DNA of 20,930 nucleotides from positions 1 to 20,930 of the IMG/VR virus record IMGVR_UViG_3300023174_000737; one strand, written 5' to 3'. A program made the position numbers and the translations under genes. The stretch is from a virus. The notes beneath the pieces were generated by a model. It did no database searches. It had not been told where the DNA came from and saw only the letters and a list, made by a program, of their open reading frames with translations. Shown one piece after another: positions 3,372 to 20,930 of the stretch. The number at the start of each line of letters is the position of its first letter. Positions within the stretch are counted from its first letter, which is position 1.

Positions 3372-4769
3372 TCACATCAGGTTATTTACGATAACGCGAC
3401 GATAGTAGAGGTTGGTGTTGAATGTAAGAGCACCTGAACCAACTGTTAGACCCTGGGCGAATGGATTTGCTACCATGCCATAACGAGTCTTGAAGCCGAT
3501 CTTTGGCTGGAAGGTTGACTGGTCAACAGCGCGGACCATCTGCAGAGGAACGTATGGGCAGTAGAACAGACCAGCGTCGAAAGCAGAAGAACCCTTATAA
3601 CCGATCGTGATATAGTTGCCACCGATTGCATATGGATCGATGTAAACCTTTAGACGACCATTAAGAACACCAGCAAAAGTATTGCCTGTGTCATCAACGT
3701 TGAGGTTGTTTGAGTTGAGGGCAGGAGCGTAGTCAAGAACACCAGCCATCTGTAGAGCCGAAGCAACGTCGGACGAGCAGATAACGATGTTACCCTTACC
3801 ACGACGAGTTGTACGAGCGATAGCATTAGCTTCACGTTCCAGCTGGAACATCAGACCCTTGAACTTTTCAACTGACCAACGACCGTTTGAGTCGGTGTCG
3901 AGGTCGAAAATACCAGCAGTTGTAGTATTGTCCTGAGCGCCAGTTACAGCAGTGATATTGATCGTACGAACAACTTCACGGTTGATTTCGGCAAGGATTT
4001 CAGCTGAAAGGATGTTAGCAAGTTCTGTTTCAGCATCAAGACCATGAATAGCCTTCAGATCCTGAGCCAGTTCCATTGTGTACTCAGCCTTCAGGGCACG
4101 TGACTTCGCAGTAACAGTTACCTTCTCGATTGAGAAGCCCATCTGAGCGAATGCAGTGTTACCGTCAGTTCCGAGAACTTCAGCCTGAGCTGTCGACATA
4201 CCTGAACCGGTGTTATATCCGTTAACGGCAGACATGATTGAAGTATTCGTGTCACCTGGGATTGTACCAACAAACTTCTGACCGAACGAGTTAGCACCTG
4301 AAGTTACAGATGTGAATGTTGAGTCAACTTCGTTGTAGAAAGTTTCGCCACCAGCTCTTGTGTTACCAATTGCAGATGTGTTACCAAGAGCAGCAGAGTT
4401 GCCGAACTTCGAACGCATTGCGAAGATAAGTCCTGTTGGACCTGTCATTGGCTGAGTACCAGCAATGTCATAAGCAATCAGGTTTGGCATCGCACGACGA
4501 ACCAGTGAGATAAGTACTGGGTCGAATGTGTCGATTGGACCAGCGCCAGCAGTTGAGCTAGATGCGCCCATGCCGTTATATGCGCCGCCTGAAGTTGTTT
4601 CAGTAAGAGTTTGATATTGACCGTGAACGGCGGATTCGCGAAGAGCGCGCTCTGTGTTTTCTAGAACAACTGCAGTTACCGAACGACGGTGAGCGTCGCG
4701 GATTGATGGCAGTTCTGAGTGCTCTAGAATAGGAGCCCACTTCTTTTGGATTTCTTCCTGTAGAAACAT
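3372..4769 (-). CDS. 23: Major capsid protein gp23
   Basis: This is the hexon-forming HK97-fold capsid protein of T4-like heads, 465 residues against 521 in T4. Matches to remembered T4 gp23 run through its length: the N-terminal KWAPILE...LP region (10-21), VRRAMPNLIAYDI (about 90-102), MGFSIEKVTVTAKSRALKAEY, ELAQDLKAIHGLDAE, EILAEINREVVR, and the C-terminal FQPKIGFKTRYGM and YYRRVIV. The N-terminal scaffold-targeting segment contains LTE at 55-57 followed by Thr, aligning with the T4 gp21 cleavage site at Glu65. Predicted mature protein starts at residue 58. ATG at 4769 with AAAGGGAA about 9 nt upstream and a perfect late promoter 30 nt upstream, matching the expected very high expression. 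Confidence 0.98.
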   Translation of the reverse strand: MFLQEEIQKKWAPILEHSELPSIRDAHRRSVTAVVLENTERALRESAVHGQYQTLTETTSGGAYNGMGASSSTAGAGPIDTFDPVLISLVRRAMPNLIAYDIAGTQPMTGPTGLIFAMRSKFGNSAALGNTSAIGNTRAGGETFYNEVDSTFTSVTSGANSFGQKFVGTIPGDTNTSIMSAVNGYNTGSGMSTAQAEVLGTDGNTAFAQMGFSIEKVTVTAKSRALKAEYTMELAQDLKAIHGLDAETELANILSAEILAEINREVVRTINITAVTGAQDNTTTAGIFDLDTDSNGRWSVEKFKGLMFQLEREANAIARTTRRGKGNIVICSSDVASALQMAGVLDYAPALNSNNLNVDDTGNTFAGVLNGRLKVYIDPYAIGGNYITIGYKGSSAFDAGLFYCPYVPLQMVRAVDQSTFQPKIGFKTRYGMVANPFAQGLTVGSGALTFNTNLYYRRVIVNNLM

Positions 4770-4799
4770 TTTAGTTATTCCCTTTCTTTAGGTTTTTTT

Positions 4800-4807
4800 T
4801 ATTTATA
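4800..4807 (-). promoter_or_regulatory. T4-type late promoter for gp23
   Basis: Perfect TATAAATA on the minus strand, 30 nt before the gp23 ATG and inside the gap after the gp22 stop. It would give gp23 its own transcript on top of read-through from gp22. Confidence 0.8.
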
Positions 4808-4812
4808 AAAGA

Positions 4813-5850
4813 TTATTTCTTGACGGTTCTTGAGATTGCTTGTACGTACTTGTTAACCTGGGGATCAACAGATACGATCTTCTCGCCGATTTCGCCTTCG
4901 AACGTTTCTTCTTCAATATTCGAAGACTGAGGCTTCGTTGCTGGGAAATAGTTTTCCTTTACAACCGAAAGTTTCTTCTTGTAGACATCGAGGTCGCCGT
5001 CAAAGCTGACTCCCTCGGCGAGTGAAAGAAACTTTTCGGACTGAGTTAGAGTGAGACCTTCCGCGATTTCATCGACAGTTTCCTGTCTCGCCGATTCCAG
5101 AATAGCAACTTTTAGCTCAGCATTTTCATTGATTGTCTCATCTAGAGCAGCTTCTAGTCTTTCAACCTTAGCAGCTAGTTCTTCAACGACATTGATCTTT
5201 TCTTCTGGCATATCGATATAATGCTCAGCGAAAAGGTTCTTTAGACCACCAATGAATTCTTCCATGATTTCATTGCGTAGTGCCGATTCAATCGCCACTT
5301 CGTTTTCTTGCATCCAATTTTCAACAACGTAATCAAGGTATGTGTTTAGGTTATTTTCGACACCTTCAACGATAGAAGTAACTTCTTCTTCTAAGCGAGT
5401 TTCGTACTCTTCCTCAAGGCGCGTAATTTCAATCACAGCACGCGCATTAACTGCAGCTTCGAATAGAGTTGAAGCTTTATCTTTAAACTCTTCTGAAAGA
5501 TTTTCACCATCAAACATTTCTTCAACGTCTTCTTTAACGTCAATTTTTGGCATAGCGTCACGAGTCTTCGGACCCTTACCAGTCTTCATATCGATACTTG
5601 ATGCGTTAGAGTCAGCTGAAGCTCCAGCTGGTAGTGAGCTTGCTTCCTTACCGATAAGAGCCATGGCTTGTGTATACCACTTTGTCAAATCGTCCTTACG
5701 CATAGAATGCATTGCGCCGATTACTGAAGTAATAGCTTCAATCTTCGACTTTGGATCTGAACCCACTGAACGAGATCCTGCCTTCAGAGTTTCTGAGGCA
5801 ATTGATTCGTCTAGAGTTTCAGTATTGATATCCGTATTTTCTTCAGGCAT
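4813..5850 (-). CDS. 22: Prohead scaffolding core protein gp22
   Basis: gp22 forms the internal scaffold around which gp23 assembles and is later degraded by gp21. The product is 345 residues (T4: 269), strongly acidic and coiled-coil-like. Signature regions are FDGENLSEEFKDKASTLFEA followed by an Ala-Val-rich helix, a Glu-rich helix (EEEYETRLEEEV), a long coiled coil (VVEELAAKVERLEAALDETI), and the C-terminal DPQVNKYVQAISRT typical of the family. An N-terminal stretch of about 95 residues rich in Ser, Ala and Gly makes it longer than T4 gp22. The frame can be opened at TTG 5868, but the ATG at 5850 has GGGAGA about 7 nt upstream, while the TTG would lie over that site, so I use 5850. Confidence 0.95.
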   Translation of the reverse strand: MPEENTDINTETLDESIASETLKAGSRSVGSDPKSKIEAITSVIGAMHSMRKDDLTKWYTQAMALIGKEASSLPAGASADSNASSIDMKTGKGPKTRDAMPKIDVKEDVEEMFDGENLSEEFKDKASTLFEAAVNARAVIEITRLEEEYETRLEEEVTSIVEGVENNLNTYLDYVVENWMQENEVAIESALRNEIMEEFIGGLKNLFAEHYIDMPEEKINVVEELAAKVERLEAALDETINENAELKVAILESARQETVDEIAEGLTLTQSEKFLSLAEGVSFDGDLDVYKKKLSVVKENYFPATKPQSSNIEEETFEGEIGEKIVSVDPQVNKYVQAISRTVKK

Positions 5851-15955: not shown

Positions 15956-16699
15956 CACAGATTTCCTTCTGAGAAAGGATCTTTTTCGGTAAAGTCGATG
16001 AAATCATCTGATCCTAGTGGGAAGTTATCAGTTCCATACTGAATCGTATCGTTTTCGGATGCTGGATTGATAGTTTCGGGTTTGTAACCCTCTACAACCA
16101 GATAGTTACTATTTTCGTCGGTCAGATTGACACCCTCTTCATCCATAATAGCGTAATCAAGAATGTTGATGGAGTAGTTTTTCTGAATGGAGTCGATCTC
16201 ATCAACTCCAGTGTTGAACTGTTCGTTACTGTATTCGAAGAGCTCGCAAGTCAGTTCCCAAGTCTGCAAAGCACCGAACTGATAGAACATCTCAAACTTA
16301 TTGACGAACTTGATCTGGAAACATTTGCGATTCAGTGGGAAGTAAATCAGATCGCCTTCGTTCGGTCTTACCTGATCAGTTACAATAGCAACTTCCTGGT
16401 TGAACGTTCTCTGGGCAATGCTGAATACAACCTGATCACGAATCTGCAAGCCGAACTTAGACATGAAGTTACCATCGCCAGTAAACCCATCAACCGATTT
16501 GATGTAGAGCTCTACCATGATAGCATGATTGTATTGTGATGAATCGTCTTCGCCGATGAGCTTATCGTAGTTTGTAATAACACGGGGAATGTATAGCATA
16601 TCTTCTCCGTAAATACGGATAGCTTCGATGATCAGATCCTCGTAAAGGCTCTGTTCGCCTGTAGATGAGAAGTTATTGAAAGTAAAAGTTAGTCGCCAT
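15955..16699 (-). CDS. 14: Neck protein gp14, with an apparent +1 frameshift at codon 7
   Basis: gp14 is a neck/head-completion protein linking head and tail. The uninterrupted frame starts only at an internal ATG (16599, 214 aa) and carries family segments such as MYIKSVDGF-type LYIKSVDGFTGDGNFMSKFG, LQIRDQVVF, PNEGDLIYFPLNRKCF and GALQTWELTCELFEYS. By hand translation the same frame continues upstream of 16599 as FNNFSSTGEQSLYEDLII then EAIRIYGED, which is what gp14 proteins carry at their N-terminus, but it has no start codon. A well-placed ATG at 16699 with a strong Shine-Dalgarno reads MATNFYFQ then stop at 16673. Skipping one T in the TTT at 16679-16681 joins the two as MATNFYFNNFSST and gives 247 aa (T4: 256). 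Either a sequence error, a real mutation or a +1 frameshift. Confidence 0.88.
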
Positions 16700-17318
16700 T
16701 GACAATTCCCTCCTTTTTCTTAGCCCAAGCGGCTTTAGATCTTATAGATTGCAATTCTCTATAGTTTTCGGGTCTTCTTGACGCGCTAATTTTACCTGCT
16801 TTAGAAGCAATTTCTTTAGTGTTGGGATTAACAAGTTTAGATTCGCTCATTTTCTTTTTTGATATATCCGTATGTTTACTACCTATTCTGGAAGCAATAA
16901 CGGCTGCAGCATGTTCAGGAGAATTTTTCGAAGCTTTTCTACCTGCTCGTAATGCCGCAATATGTTCTGGCGTTCTTTTTCTTTTTTTTCCTGCAATACT
17001 CATATTGATTTTATGTTCTTCTGATATGGAATCTTTGGTCCAACCGTCAAAATAAAAACCGTCATTGTTATGCCTGTTGTAAAATCCCTCGTTTAGTTTA
17101 GCGTCAACAGATTGAAGAATTTTAGCTTCCAATTTTCTTATGTCCGCATGTTTTCCTCTAGCAACGATCTGTCTCGAGAAATCTTGAGGTCTGCGATTAT
17201 ACTCTTCCATCATGTATTTACTAGAACAAACGTAACCGTCATCCGTCGAACCTTTATGAGATCCGACATACAACTTGTTATTAACTTTATCGGTCCAACA
17301 GTACACGAAAGCTTCCAT
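16689..17318 (-). CDS. GIY-YIG homing-type endonuclease with NUMOD-like repeats
   Basis: This is probably a free-standing homing endonuclease of the Seg/I-TevI type, a selfish gene that spreads by cutting DNA lacking it. The 209-residue product has an N-terminal GIY-YIG nuclease domain: VY (5-6) and LYVGS (16-20) frame the motif, Arg48-Arg52 region and Glu64 in KLEAKIL are candidate catalytic residues, and FYNRHNN (79-85) closes it. The C-terminal half carries repeated short helix/DNA-minor-groove modules of NUMOD3 type (SEEHKINMSIAGKKRKR, TPEHIAALRAGRKAS, SPEHAAAVIASRIG) and a Lys-rich tail. It is wedged between gp13 (TAATG overlap) and gp14 (11-bp overlap). By eye it looks more AT-rich than the flanking structural genes. 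It is not required for virion assembly. Confidence 0.9.
   Translation of the reverse strand: MEAFVYCWTDKVNNKLYVGSHKGSTDDGYVCSSKYMMEEYNRRPQDFSRQIVARGKHADIRKLEAKILQSVDAKLNEGFYNRHNNDGFYFDGWTKDSISEEHKINMSIAGKKRKRTPEHIAALRAGRKASKNSPEHAAAVIASRIGSKHTDISKKKMSESKLVNPNTKEIASKAGKISASRRPENYRELQSIRSKAAWAKKKEGIVNGD
16708..16715 (-). promoter_or_regulatory. Strong Shine-Dalgarno for gp14 inside the endonuclease gene
   Basis: AAGGAGGG on the minus strand ends 8 nt before the ATG at 16699. It is the strongest ribosome site in the area and lies within codons for the last residues of the endonuclease. It argues that the true gp14 start is 16699, not the internal ATG at 16599. Confidence 0.85.
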
Positions 17319-18168: not shown

Positions 18169-18612
18169 TCAGATATCGAACTCATAACGATAAGCAACCG
18201 GTTCAATACCAAGCTTTTTATACATATCAATTGTTGATTGAACTGTTAACATCACATTATCTGTTATACGTTTCACGCCTTGTTCTTTTAATTCTTTGTA
18301 TGCCATTTCGCGCGTTATAACACGTAGACCCCTTTTTCTGTAATCTGGTTTAACATAAGTAAACAATGATTCGTAAAATTCGGGCGTTATAGGATAATAA
18401 ACTCTTATTCCTACTGGAACATCATCAACTTTAATGAAGTAAAAAACTCCTTTTAACCTATTGATAGGAGGAGTCTCGCGAGCAAGAGAACCTAGCGCAA
18501 TCAATTCCACCCAAGCGGCATCCCACATTTCTGTAAAAATTTTATTTTTTTCAAAATTTTGTTCATTAACGGTTCTTAGATCTAATTTTTCAAGCGTAAT
18601 ATTATCTGTCAT
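18169..18612 (-). CDS. GNAT-family acetyltransferase-like protein
   Basis: This 147-residue protein has the layout of a GCN5-related N-acetyltransferase. Two beta strands with VFYFIKVDDVPVGIRVYYP (56-74) come first. The acetyl-CoA-binding motif A then appears as YVKPDYRKRGLRVITREMA (86-104), with RKRGLR standing for the R/Q-x-x-G-x-G/A signature; the last position is Arg, not Gly or Ala. Motif B-like STIDMYKKLGIEPV (126-139) follows. The substrate cannot be inferred from sequence. The frame also opens at ATG 18624, but GGAGG lies 5 nt before the ATG at 18612, and the 18624 start would lie on this site, so I choose 18612. It follows the radical SAM gene by only 12 nt and so may act in the same modification step. 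Confidence 0.72.
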   Translation of the reverse strand: MTDNITLEKLDLRTVNEQNFEKNKIFTEMWDAAWVELIALGSLARETPPINRLKGVFYFIKVDDVPVGIRVYYPITPEFYESLFTYVKPDYRKRGLRVITREMAYKELKEQGVKRITDNVMLTVQSTIDMYKKLGIEPVAYRYEFDI

Positions 18613-18624
18613 TTGAACCTCCAT

Positions 18625-20037
18625 TTACTTCTTTGCGACTGTTGGGATTGATTCTTCTCTAATTTGCGGTACTGATTGCTTAATGTTTCTAATCTGACCC
18701 CATAAATCTTGTCTATCTTCTGGTAGTTGATAATCATCATCAATAGCAGTAATCTTGTAAGGGAGTGCTCCTGTAGCGGTTTCTAATGCAATAGCAAAGA
18801 ATGGAAGATGATCCGAGTAAGCTGCATCACAAGACAATTTAAAATATTCGCCTTCAAGAAACATACAAGAACCTTTACATACCTGTAATAGAGGACACCT
18901 GGCGCAATCATCTCTGAACTTCCAGTGCGTTGATGTATTCAACTTAACATTAGCTAATTGATTAACATGCCCAATTCTATGAGACTTGCCATTTGGAGCT
19001 TTCGAAACAGCCGTGACATTCTGACAAGTGAGCACATTGCCCTGAAGATCAACAGCCATGGTATCTTCTTGATCCATTCCACACTTTTGACCTAGAGTAT
19101 CGGCTGATCTATAGTTACCCCAACTATTAAGCCATTCTTGAACTCTTTGTTTGACAATGATGAATCGATTAATATCATTATTACGAATCGCCATCAAAGT
19201 GGTCATTCTATGACCTACGTGTTCTTCATCACCTTGTGGCACATTTTTCTTACCACCCTCATCATATACATCGATGAATCCGCCTTCACCGATCATGAAA
19301 TTGCTCTGTTGGTTTAAATTAAACAGATCCTCGAAAAATGTCTGAATACTAGCCCGATCCATGTTTTCGCGATGCACCATTGAATTGATGCTAATTCTAC
19401 CTTCAGGAAGGAACCGATTGAACAGCTTAAATAGAATCTTTCTTTGGACCGGATCTTCGAACGGATCTGGACCTCTTACGTTCTGACCTGGACCATCGTG
19501 AGATACAGCCATACTAAAACCCATGTCATACAGCCAGTCGATGATCTCTTCTGTGATCAAAGAGCCGTTAGTAATGACCGAGAATCTTGTCTTTGGATAT
19601 TTTTCTCGAAGACGCTCAGCCAACGGCTTCATGACTTTCCAGTAAACGAATGGTTCACCACCCCAAAATTCAATCTTCTCGGGCGGAATTTTAAGCCAAG
19701 TGTCCATGTTATCGATGAACTTATCCATCAACTTCGTATTGGAGTGATCGATGTTTGGAACGAATCTCTGCGAACAATATTCGCAAGAGTAGTTACAAGA
19801 CAGACCCATCTGAATCTTCAGAAGCTTAATGTCTGATTTACTGCCTGGGGTGTCGACCGAGATAGCCTTTACGATATTATTCGACTTTTGCGACCAGACT
19901 GGCTTAATATTAACCAGTTTATTTTTGTTATCAAAAATCTCGGAAGTCATGTTATCATAGATGTAACTTACCTGATCAATTCTTTCAATACCGGTATCGT
20001 TGTAAACTGGCTTCGTGCAGTTAAGTAAAAACCTCAT
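18625..20037 (-). CDS. Radical SAM/SPASM enzyme (peptide- or protein-modifying)
   Basis: This 470-residue enzyme is predicted to cleave S-adenosylmethionine with a [4Fe-4S] cluster and modify a peptide or protein. The radical SAM core has CNYSCEYC (Cys81, 85, 88; CxxxCxxC), WGGEPF (GGEP at 126-129) and ITNGSL (155-160). The C-terminal SPASM domain fits CX9-15GX4C-CX2CX5CX3C-C exactly: Cys319, Gly333, Cys338, Cys378, Cys381, Cys387, Cys391, Cys403, enough for two auxiliary clusters. This layout is shared with anaerobic sulfatase maturases, PqqE and sactipeptide/ranthipeptide maturases. Residues 1-70 are an N-terminal extension of unknown type. ATG at 20037 with AAAAGG 8 nt upstream, 21 nt after the Asn-Cys-rich gene, its likely substrate by adjacency. 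No sulfatase is present. Confidence 0.93.
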   Translation of the reverse strand: MRFLLNCTKPVYNDTGIERIDQVSYIYDNMTSEIFDNKNKLVNIKPVWSQKSNNIVKAISVDTPGSKSDIKLLKIQMGLSCNYSCEYCSQRFVPNIDHSNTKLMDKFIDNMDTWLKIPPEKIEFWGGEPFVYWKVMKPLAERLREKYPKTRFSVITNGSLITEEIIDWLYDMGFSMAVSHDGPGQNVRGPDPFEDPVQRKILFKLFNRFLPEGRISINSMVHRENMDRASIQTFFEDLFNLNQQSNFMIGEGGFIDVYDEGGKKNVPQGDEEHVGHRMTTLMAIRNNDINRFIIVKQRVQEWLNSWGNYRSADTLGQKCGMDQEDTMAVDLQGNVLTCQNVTAVSKAPNGKSHRIGHVNQLANVKLNTSTHWKFRDDCARCPLLQVCKGSCMFLEGEYFKLSCDAAYSDHLPFFAIALETATGALPYKITAIDDDYQLPEDRQDLWGQIRNIKQSVPQIREESIPTVAKK

Positions 20038-20058: not shown

Positions 20059-20463
20059 TTATTTACCACATTGACAATCACAATTACAATTACAATTGTT
20101 TTGAACACATTGTGAAGCATTGCAATTATAGGGACCACAATTTCCATCATTACAATTATTCTGTAACGCATAACCACCGCAATTGATACAATTAACATTT
20201 CCTGCATAAACACAATTTTGACAATTTTGTGGGTAATCGTAGCAATTGCAGTTGAAAGTACAATTGCCGTTGTTACAGTTGCCTTCGTTGGTCTTGTTGA
20301 TATAAGCTTTACCGTAATAGTTACTCATGGCATAAGATTGTTGACCAGGTCTGGTGTTATTATAAACATAAGCCATATCGATGATTGTACCACTGGCACC
20401 ACCGCCATTGATTTCAACGTGAATATCATTTAAGCTTAAAGGACCACTGCCCGGTAACGTCAT
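20059..20463 (-). CDS. Asn-Cys-rich small virion-type protein, candidate substrate of the radical SAM enzyme
   Basis: This is a 134-residue protein in two parts. Residues 1-58 (LPGSGPLSLNDIHVEI and later SNYYGKAY) resemble a short module I recall from phage tail and baseplate proteins with an LPxSGPISLxDI start. Residues 60-134 hold 17 Cys in about 70 positions (63, 68, 72, 74, 81, 84, 92, 95, 104, 109, 114, 119, 124, 126, 128, 130, 132), 14 of them directly preceded by Asn. No known metallothionein or disulfide fold is recognised. ATG at 20463 is 1 nt after the fibre stop, and the radical SAM gene follows 21 nt downstream. The arrangement suggests a structural protein with a modified or cross-linked Cys-rich domain. 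A metal-binding or simply low-complexity spike tip are alternatives. Confidence 0.8.
   Translation of the reverse strand: MTLPGSGPLSLNDIHVEINGGGASGTIIDMAYVYNNTRPGQQSYAMSNYYGKAYINKTNEGNCNNGNCTFNCNCYDYPQNCQNCVYAGNVNCINCGGYALQNNCNDGNCGPYNCNASQCVQNNCNCNCDCQCGK
20074..20097. repeat. Tandem ACAATY hexamer repeat
   Basis: Four head-to-tail copies, ACAATC then ACAATT three times. On the minus coding strand this is the Asn-Cys codon pair (AAT TGT) near the end of the Asn-Cys-rich protein, a structure prone to expansion and contraction in steps of two residues. Confidence 0.85.
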
Positions 20464-20464
20464 G

Positions 20465-20930
20465 TTAAATTCTCTTTTCTAGTTCTTCAACTTTAGCGGA
20501 AAGCTCTTTGATGGCTTCAATTAACAACGGCACAATCTTTTCATACTGAACTGTTTTATAGTTTTCACCTGATTTAGAGACATATGTTGTACCCTCATCT
20601 ATATATTCTCTGTCAAATGGAGCCATCTGCACTGCTTCAGGAAGAACTGCTTCGATTTCATGAGCAATAACGCCAACTTGTTTGCTTTGATCTTTATAAC
20701 CAAGACTTGCGGCAATATCATTGCTATTGAATGTCACACCACGAATTGCTTTGACTTTATTCAAAGCATCTGGTATTAGAGTGATATTGGTTTTTAATCT
20801 TATATCAGAGTAATAAGCAATAATATTGCCTGAAGTATGGGTTTCACCGGATGTATATGTTGATTGATTTAAAACAATGTGGGCACCATCCCAATACATA
20901 CCTACGGCGCCATCATTACGCATATAATAT
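20465..20930 (-). CDS. Tail fibre/spike C-terminus with S74 intramolecular chaperone domain (N-terminus cut by window edge)
   Basis: The visible 154 residues are the C-terminal end of a tail fibre or spike protein. They hold a Peptidase_S74-type intramolecular chaperone, which trimerises the fibre and then often cleaves itself off. Features are SDIRLKTNI, with the Ser at the usual autocleavage position, and IPDALNKVKAIRGVTFN. QVGVIAHEIEAVLPEAV, then VQYEKIVPLLIEAIKEL and a final short coiled coil (SAKVEELEKRI) complete the domain. The first ATG seen is at 20923, but the frame stays open to the right edge (Tyr-Tyr just before), so this is an internal Met and the gene extends beyond the window. 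It is followed 1 nt later by the Asn-Cys-rich gene. Confidence 0.93.
   Translation of the reverse strand, partial: YYMRNDGAVGMYWDGAHIVLNQSTYTSGETHTSGNIIAYYSDIRLKTNITLIPDALNKVKAIRGVTFNSNDIAASLGYKDQSKQVGVIAHEIEAVLPEAVQMAPFDREYIDEGTTYVSKSGENYKTVQYEKIVPLLIEAIKELSAKVEELEKRI

Follow-up and report, generated by a model that had tools for sequence, protein, structure and literature searches.

A recurrent gene pair of an Asn-Cys array protein and a radical SAM/SPASM enzyme, a candidate tail modification module of phages

INTRODUCTION

Why would a phage protein place Asn before almost every one of its cysteines? The question is raised by an open reading frame in a 20,930-nucleotide stretch of viral DNA (IMG/VR record IMGVR_UViG_3300023174_000737, positions 1–20,930; hereafter the window), which matches to neck, sheath stabilizer, and terminase proteins identify as a fragment of a T4-like myovirus. 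A first-pass annotation had suggested that the Asn-Cys (NC) dipeptide is the recognition element of a modifying enzyme. That hypothesis is supported by a neighboring gene that the annotation did not mention, which encodes a radical SAM/SPASM enzyme and begins 21 bases downstream of the array ORF on the same (minus) strand. The relevant features of the window, all on the minus strand, are as follows.

20059..20463, minus: 134-aa array protein rich in Cys, putative enzyme substrate and putative protein of the distal tail-fiber tip (ORF; homologs in at least 12 phage/prophage loci of the same subtype)
20290..20463, minus: N-terminal module, residues 1–58, probably tail-associated (small AF2 fold, pLDDT about 60–84; weak matches)
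20062..20283, minus: Asn-Cys array, residues 61–134, 17 Cys, proposed modification sites (sequence; predicted disordered)
18625..20037, minus: radical SAM/SPASM enzyme, 470 aa, proposed array maturase (PF04055, TIGR04085, phrog_1802, AF2 fold)
19774..19797, minus: motif of the SAM-binding 4Fe-4S cluster, CxxxCxxC with C81, C85, and C88 (invariant in 81/81 sequences)
18829..19083, minus: SPASM region (C319...C403), seven invariant Cys, CX13GX4C-CX2CX5CX3C-C (alignment)
20465..20929, minus: C-terminal part of a tail-fiber protein with a Peptidase_S74 chaperone (PF13884, 1.9e-14; tail-fiber PHROGs)
18169..18624, minus: GNAT acetyltransferase, downstream of the enzyme (PF00583, 2.2e-06)

RESULTS

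The Asn-Cys Array Is Maintained at the Protein Level

The ORF starts with ATG, and 14 of its 17 cysteines follow an Asn, as originally counted; all 17 lie at residue 63 or later. When the non-Cys residues of the array were shuffled, a mean of 6.3 Asn-Cys dipeptides was obtained and 14 was never reached in 200,000 trials. Codon usage is mixed (AAT/AAC and TGT/TGC), which indicates that the pattern is kept at the protein level and excludes a DNA microsatellite artifact. The protein ends in NNCNCNCDCQCGK, and its Cys spacing is as first described. The array is not a single simple repeat; it combines a conserved irregular core, GNCNNGNC..NCNC..NCxNC..NCxNC..LQ..C.YNC, with an alternating tail. Variation in repeat number, proposed earlier as a check, was found among close relatives, where copy number differs by single NC units. 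The array tail of a relative that is 96% identical (L001) has one NC more than that of the window, and Achromobacter phage JWF has one NC more than phage 2-1. In L001, the nearest relative, two array genes stand in tandem ahead of the enzyme (4553-4972 and 4124-4531), the second with 25 Cys in 141 codons.

Across 88 arrays, the residue preceding Cys is Asn in 402 of 653 positions (62%), Ala in 85 (13%), and Asp in 69 (11%). These three residues account for 85% of the positions, and for 89% in C-X-C contexts. Asn is not among the eight commonest pre-Cys residues in neighboring ORFs of the same loci. The irregular subfamily to which the window belongs contains cysteines that have no second Cys two positions away; Asn precedes 89% of these directly (position −1) and is found at −3 in 24%, which identifies the NC dipeptide as the unit and leaves an NxxC spacing unsupported in the irregular array. 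The NC unit is thus conserved and the spacing is not. The earlier idea of a fixed residue before Cys held as a preference for Asn but not as a rule, given the Ala and Asp in the wider family.

AF2 predicted the array, modeled without metal, to be disordered, and comparing its fold with known structures is therefore uninformative. A known zinc or iron-sulfur fold, which the first-pass annotation had named as one of the findings that would speak against its proposal, was set aside after searches of Pfam, NCBIfam, and PDB sequences gave no convincing match.

Most Arrays Lie at the C Termini of Probable Tail Proteins

The fiber gene ending in an S74 domain adjoins the array gene on its upstream side, and the same order is seen in two further loci (L002 and L006). 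Foldseek searches with the N-terminal module gave weak matches, including two proteins named as Gp38 receptor-recognizing (E 0.09 and 0.53), and tblastn gave a weak match to a tail-fiber protein of an Alteromonas phage (E 0.3). Gene order and these matches suggest that the window protein is probably located in the tail. The N-terminal 58 residues had been proposed to act as either an anchor or a leader. A tail module is the likelier of the two because the arrays sit on several unrelated bodies (four multi-member groups and singletons); with bodies that are unrelated and reach 600 aa, a conserved N-terminal leader on a small precursor was not found. The carriers are tail-fiber proteins, including one from the cultured siphophage JWF, and small tail-module proteins. 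Array proteins of JWF and L023 match tail-fiber PHROGs, many arrays are the tails of fiber-like proteins of 300–600 aa, and the JWF locus sits in the tail and lysis region.

The array ends within 10 residues of the C terminus in 70 of the 88 distinct arrays. About a dozen of the remaining 18 lead directly into a Hint domain. In JWF gp28, NCNCDCNCNCSC is followed by FPAGT, with the match to the Hint model beginning at the final Cys of the array. The array of L209 leads into an S74 chaperone, and in L007, L009, L188, and L195 the array is followed by a third kind of C-terminal domain. Members of the Hint and S74 families are known to cleave themselves; in such proteins, cleavage would leave the array as the mature C terminus.

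The Neighboring Enzyme Has Radical SAM and SPASM Domains

The enzyme matches the radical SAM model PF04055 (1e-10; 42.5 bits against a cut-off of 29.5), which places it in the superfamily. Assignment of a SPASM domain was based on the pattern CX9-15GX4C - CX2CX5CX3C - C together with a TIGR04085 match; the enzyme has the pattern and scores 33.2 bits (cut-off 27). Ten cysteines, three from CxxxCxxC and seven from the SPASM pattern, are present in 81/81 aligned enzymes. The strongest family assignment is to PHROG 1802, radical SAM domain-containing protein (1.3e-59), which is also the annotation of the enzyme gene in phage 2-1; the JWF enzyme is annotated as a sulfatase maturase. Among the matches listed, no named NCBIfam maturase model reached its cut-off. 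The best was PapB (NF047865; 66.8 against 340 bits), a model that matches all 82 members of the enzyme set, and the anaerobic sulfatase maturase model scored 39.7 bits, far below its cut-off of 349.45.

The AF2 model of the enzyme (pLDDT 95.4) has as structural neighbors CteB (Z 23.3), ChlB (19.8), anSME (19.6), TigE (17.8), SuiB (15.5), and EpeE (12.9), a shared fold that does not show what the enzyme does. TigE (8vpo) is the best PDB sequence match. The N-terminal 60 residues were modeled as strands without helices, so a canonical leader-binding RRE is not seen in this region; the alignment with CteB spans residues 1–423.

Three of the seven conserved SPASM cysteines are putative ligands of auxiliary cluster I, and D322 is nearly invariant. 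One auxiliary Cys of anSME, which we take to be an auxiliary-I ligand in that enzyme, lacks a counterpart here. In CteB and SkfB, an auxiliary cluster has an open site where a substrate Cys can bind, and this site is absent from anSME, SuiB, and PqqE (PMC8326336). The conserved Cys set is consistent with such an open site, which would favor Cys-sulfur chemistry. By analogy with the Asp of PqqE (PMC8326336), D322 could be a fourth cluster ligand, which counts against an open site.

Array and Enzyme Genes Occur Together

The search for enzyme relatives covered IMG/VR, GTDB (one genome per species), and GenBank phages. At least 565 IMG/VR stretches encode one (565 of the 600 candidates listed), and GTDB species genomes contain 79 enzyme loci, many of them in Limnohabitans and other Burkholderiales. 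Pairing was counted at loci with a full enzyme relative and at least 4 kb of upstream sequence (n = 163, among the matches listed). A C-x-C-x array ORF lies on the same strand within 6.5 kb in 149 of these, upstream of the enzyme in 148; the antisense control for array ORFs at the same 163 loci gave 19. Five of the 14 loci counted as missing (L002, L101, L009, L010, and L052) have arrays under a looser score. Searching in reverse for DNA that encodes NCNC[ND]CNC recovered 48 different array ORFs followed by 4 kb or more of sequence. Of these, 44 are accompanied by a same-strand enzyme (above 300 bits in 37 cases), although many loci are close relatives, so that the counts in both directions show consistency rather than independent events. 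In the four array ORFs without the enzyme, the repeat is not C-terminal. Some array ORFs are partnered by more distant enzymes of this kind (44–174 bits).

Arrays occur in T4-like phages, in siphophage JWF, and on contigs from bacterial genomes, and the two genes abut or overlap at several loci (L006, L106, L108, L109, and L210, among others), which points to this pair as the minimal set. Lumi and Seuss, relatives of JWF, serve as natural controls: the enzyme search gave no match in either, and their tail region has no array. The pairing of array and enzyme is strongly supported. Its recurrence in both directions, together with the adjoining genes of the window, strongly supports the proposal that a modifying enzyme recognizes NC as its unit.

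A few distant enzyme relatives from Bacteriovorax-type and Phaeospirillum genomes (L079, L082, L084, L085, and L086) have no array nearby. Radical SAM matches from Campylobacter phages and fecal phages were rejected as too distant, and no array lies beside those checked. Divergent arrays in L183 (2383-2784), L202, and L251 consist of CQxCQGC repeats followed by NCNCDCNCNC and accompany distant radical SAM enzymes (67–119 bits). In Rhodoplanes (L055:7188-7987), the enzyme is preceded by a series of three small Cys-array ORFs, the most RiPP-like layout seen.

DISCUSSION

We consider it probable that the two genes form a tail modification module in which thioether links are introduced by the enzyme into an array at the distal tip of a tail fiber. 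The array protein would be placed at the distal end of the tail fiber, ending in Asn-Cys repeats, and the enzyme would act on these repeats inside the host cell. Each Cys would be bound through an auxiliary iron-sulfur cluster, and its sulfur joined to a carbon of a nearby Asn, Asp, or Ala, the likeliest partner being the residue immediately before it. Where an extra C-terminal Hint or S74 domain exists, it would probably remove itself and leave the modified array as the exposed C terminus. The outcome would be a rigid, redox-proof tip for host contact. As judged from sequence, the enzyme very likely acts on the array, and a role for the array at the fiber tip also seems likely; for the chemistry, we lean slightly toward thioether formation.

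A more specific version, in which a large set of phages would encode their own maturases to cross-link the Asn-Cys tails of receptor-binding tips, Cys to directly preceding residue and possibly between three fiber chains, is offered tentatively. We know of no natural small-ring link between Cys and the residue directly before it. The Ala that precedes 13% of the cysteines is no activated acceptor for β-carbon chemistry, which counts against thioether formation. Thioether peptides are known to use Asn, Asp, and Thr as acceptors, with an Asn-Cys thioether in NxxcA and a Cys-Asp thioether in freyrasin (PMC8326336). PapB also links adjacent Cys and Asp, although incompletely (PMC9413430).

The enzyme might instead modify the array by other radical SAM chemistry: epimerization of the pre-Cys residue to give alternating D and L residues, conversion of Cys to formylglycine, the reaction of anaerobic sulfatase maturases, or formation of a new kind of bond. 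The structural matches include anSME (Z 19.6) and EpeE, an epimerase (Z 12.9), and the alternating X-C pattern would suit an epimerase acting on every second residue. The top PDB sequence match, TigE, is a radical SAM protein that to our knowledge is not a thioether maker, and the sulfatase maturase annotation in JWF points the same way. Set against this, the constant member of each pair is the Cys, for which an epimerase would have no need, and only three auxiliary-I ligands are conserved, unlike in anSME (PMC8326336). On this evidence, other chemistry appears unlikely, if by some way the most serious alternative to thioether formation. Far less probable is an array with unmodified thiols, in which a metallothionein-like metal site or disulfides would hold the tip together and the enzyme would serve another substrate. 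C-x-C and C-C spacings are indeed frequent in metal-binding proteins; however, neither metal nor disulfides would need the −1 Asn seen at 89% of isolated cysteines, the PDB holds no convincing match to the array, and pairing with the enzyme is near-exclusive in both directions. A free phage-made ribosomal peptide, antimicrobial or signaling, is least credible: the gene layout resembles RiPP pairs and L055 spreads its arrays over several small ORFs, but many arrays sit on fiber-like proteins of 300–600 aa, neither a transporter nor a protease was conspicuous in the neighbor census, and the JWF locus lies among tail and lysis genes.

The proposed thioether module resembles the ranthipeptide maturase systems of CteB/SCIFF and PapB-freyrasin, in which a radical SAM enzyme with a SPASM domain adjoins a Cys-rich substrate. 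CteB is the closest fold, and the three auxiliary-I cysteines are consistent with its reported open site. The differences are that the substrate here is the C-terminal tail of a phage tail-fiber or tail-module protein, that the repeats are NC rather than CX3D, that an RRE is not seen, and that the enzyme falls far below the PapB cut-off. NxxcA, which carries an Asn-Cys β-carbon thioether, shares the two partner residues but has the spacing N-x-x-C in a small peptide (PMC8326336), whereas isolated cysteines of the window subfamily favor Asn at −1 over −3. TvgB, likewise a radical SAM enzyme, has a short repeated motif as its target, but it makes cyclopropylglycine from Val in TVGG repeats with no Cys involved (PMC9062424); TvgB and TigE are grouped as repeat-modifying maturases. 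In T4-type phages, the gp38 tip adhesin is similarly encoded by a small gene directly after an S74-ended fiber gene (gp37). Unlike gp38, the window array protein has no Pfam match to that family, and its structural matches are weak.

Phages with this gene pair, which recurs in about 150 phage and prophage sequences, probably use chemical means to harden or adapt the part of the tail that meets the host cell. A phage-encoded radical enzyme that modifies receptor-binding tips would, if confirmed, be a new layer in how host contact is built and varied, and the approximately 150 natural enzyme-substrate pairs would add a new group to the peptide chemistries of radical SAM enzymes. Such a role would also be a likely one for PHROG 1802, a recurrent gene of freshwater phages and prophages whose pairing with NC arrays is not described in the literature searched. 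That literature covered phage radical SAM enzymes, Hint domains, and tail-fiber modification, with preprints and most subscription journals outside its coverage, and contained no report of the system. The cultured temperate Achromobacter phage JWF provides a direct experimental system.

Other neighbors were considered as parts of the module. GNAT, ATP-grasp, 2OG oxygenase, and asparagine-synthase-like genes were rejected as essential components because they are present at some loci only. Involvement of the window's GNAT acetyltransferase is doubtful; in a neighbor census of about 100 loci, no GNAT cluster recurred in at least six. ATP-grasp-like enzymes, recognized by eye from sequence, occur near array and enzyme in L002 (6440-7402) and L004 (2820-3758), recalling other peptide-modifying pathways. 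Genes for an asparagine-synthase-like protein (L113:474-1577, E 0.014) and a 2OG-Fe(II) oxygenase (L106:8442-9101) recur in the vicinity of the enzyme, at about 10–13 loci of about 100. More frequent is a family of proteins of approximately 280 residues (L112:7074-7928) that matches nothing in Pfam or PHROG and is encoded a short way upstream of the enzyme at 39 of these loci; it is possibly an accessory or substrate-delivery protein. In L006 (2407-6443), two different radical SAM enzymes of the family come after the array gene, separated from each other by a 297-residue protein. Elsewhere in the window, an inserted GIY-YIG/NUMOD3 homing-endonuclease-like gene (16689-17318, minus strand) separates the head-tail adaptor and head-closure genes.
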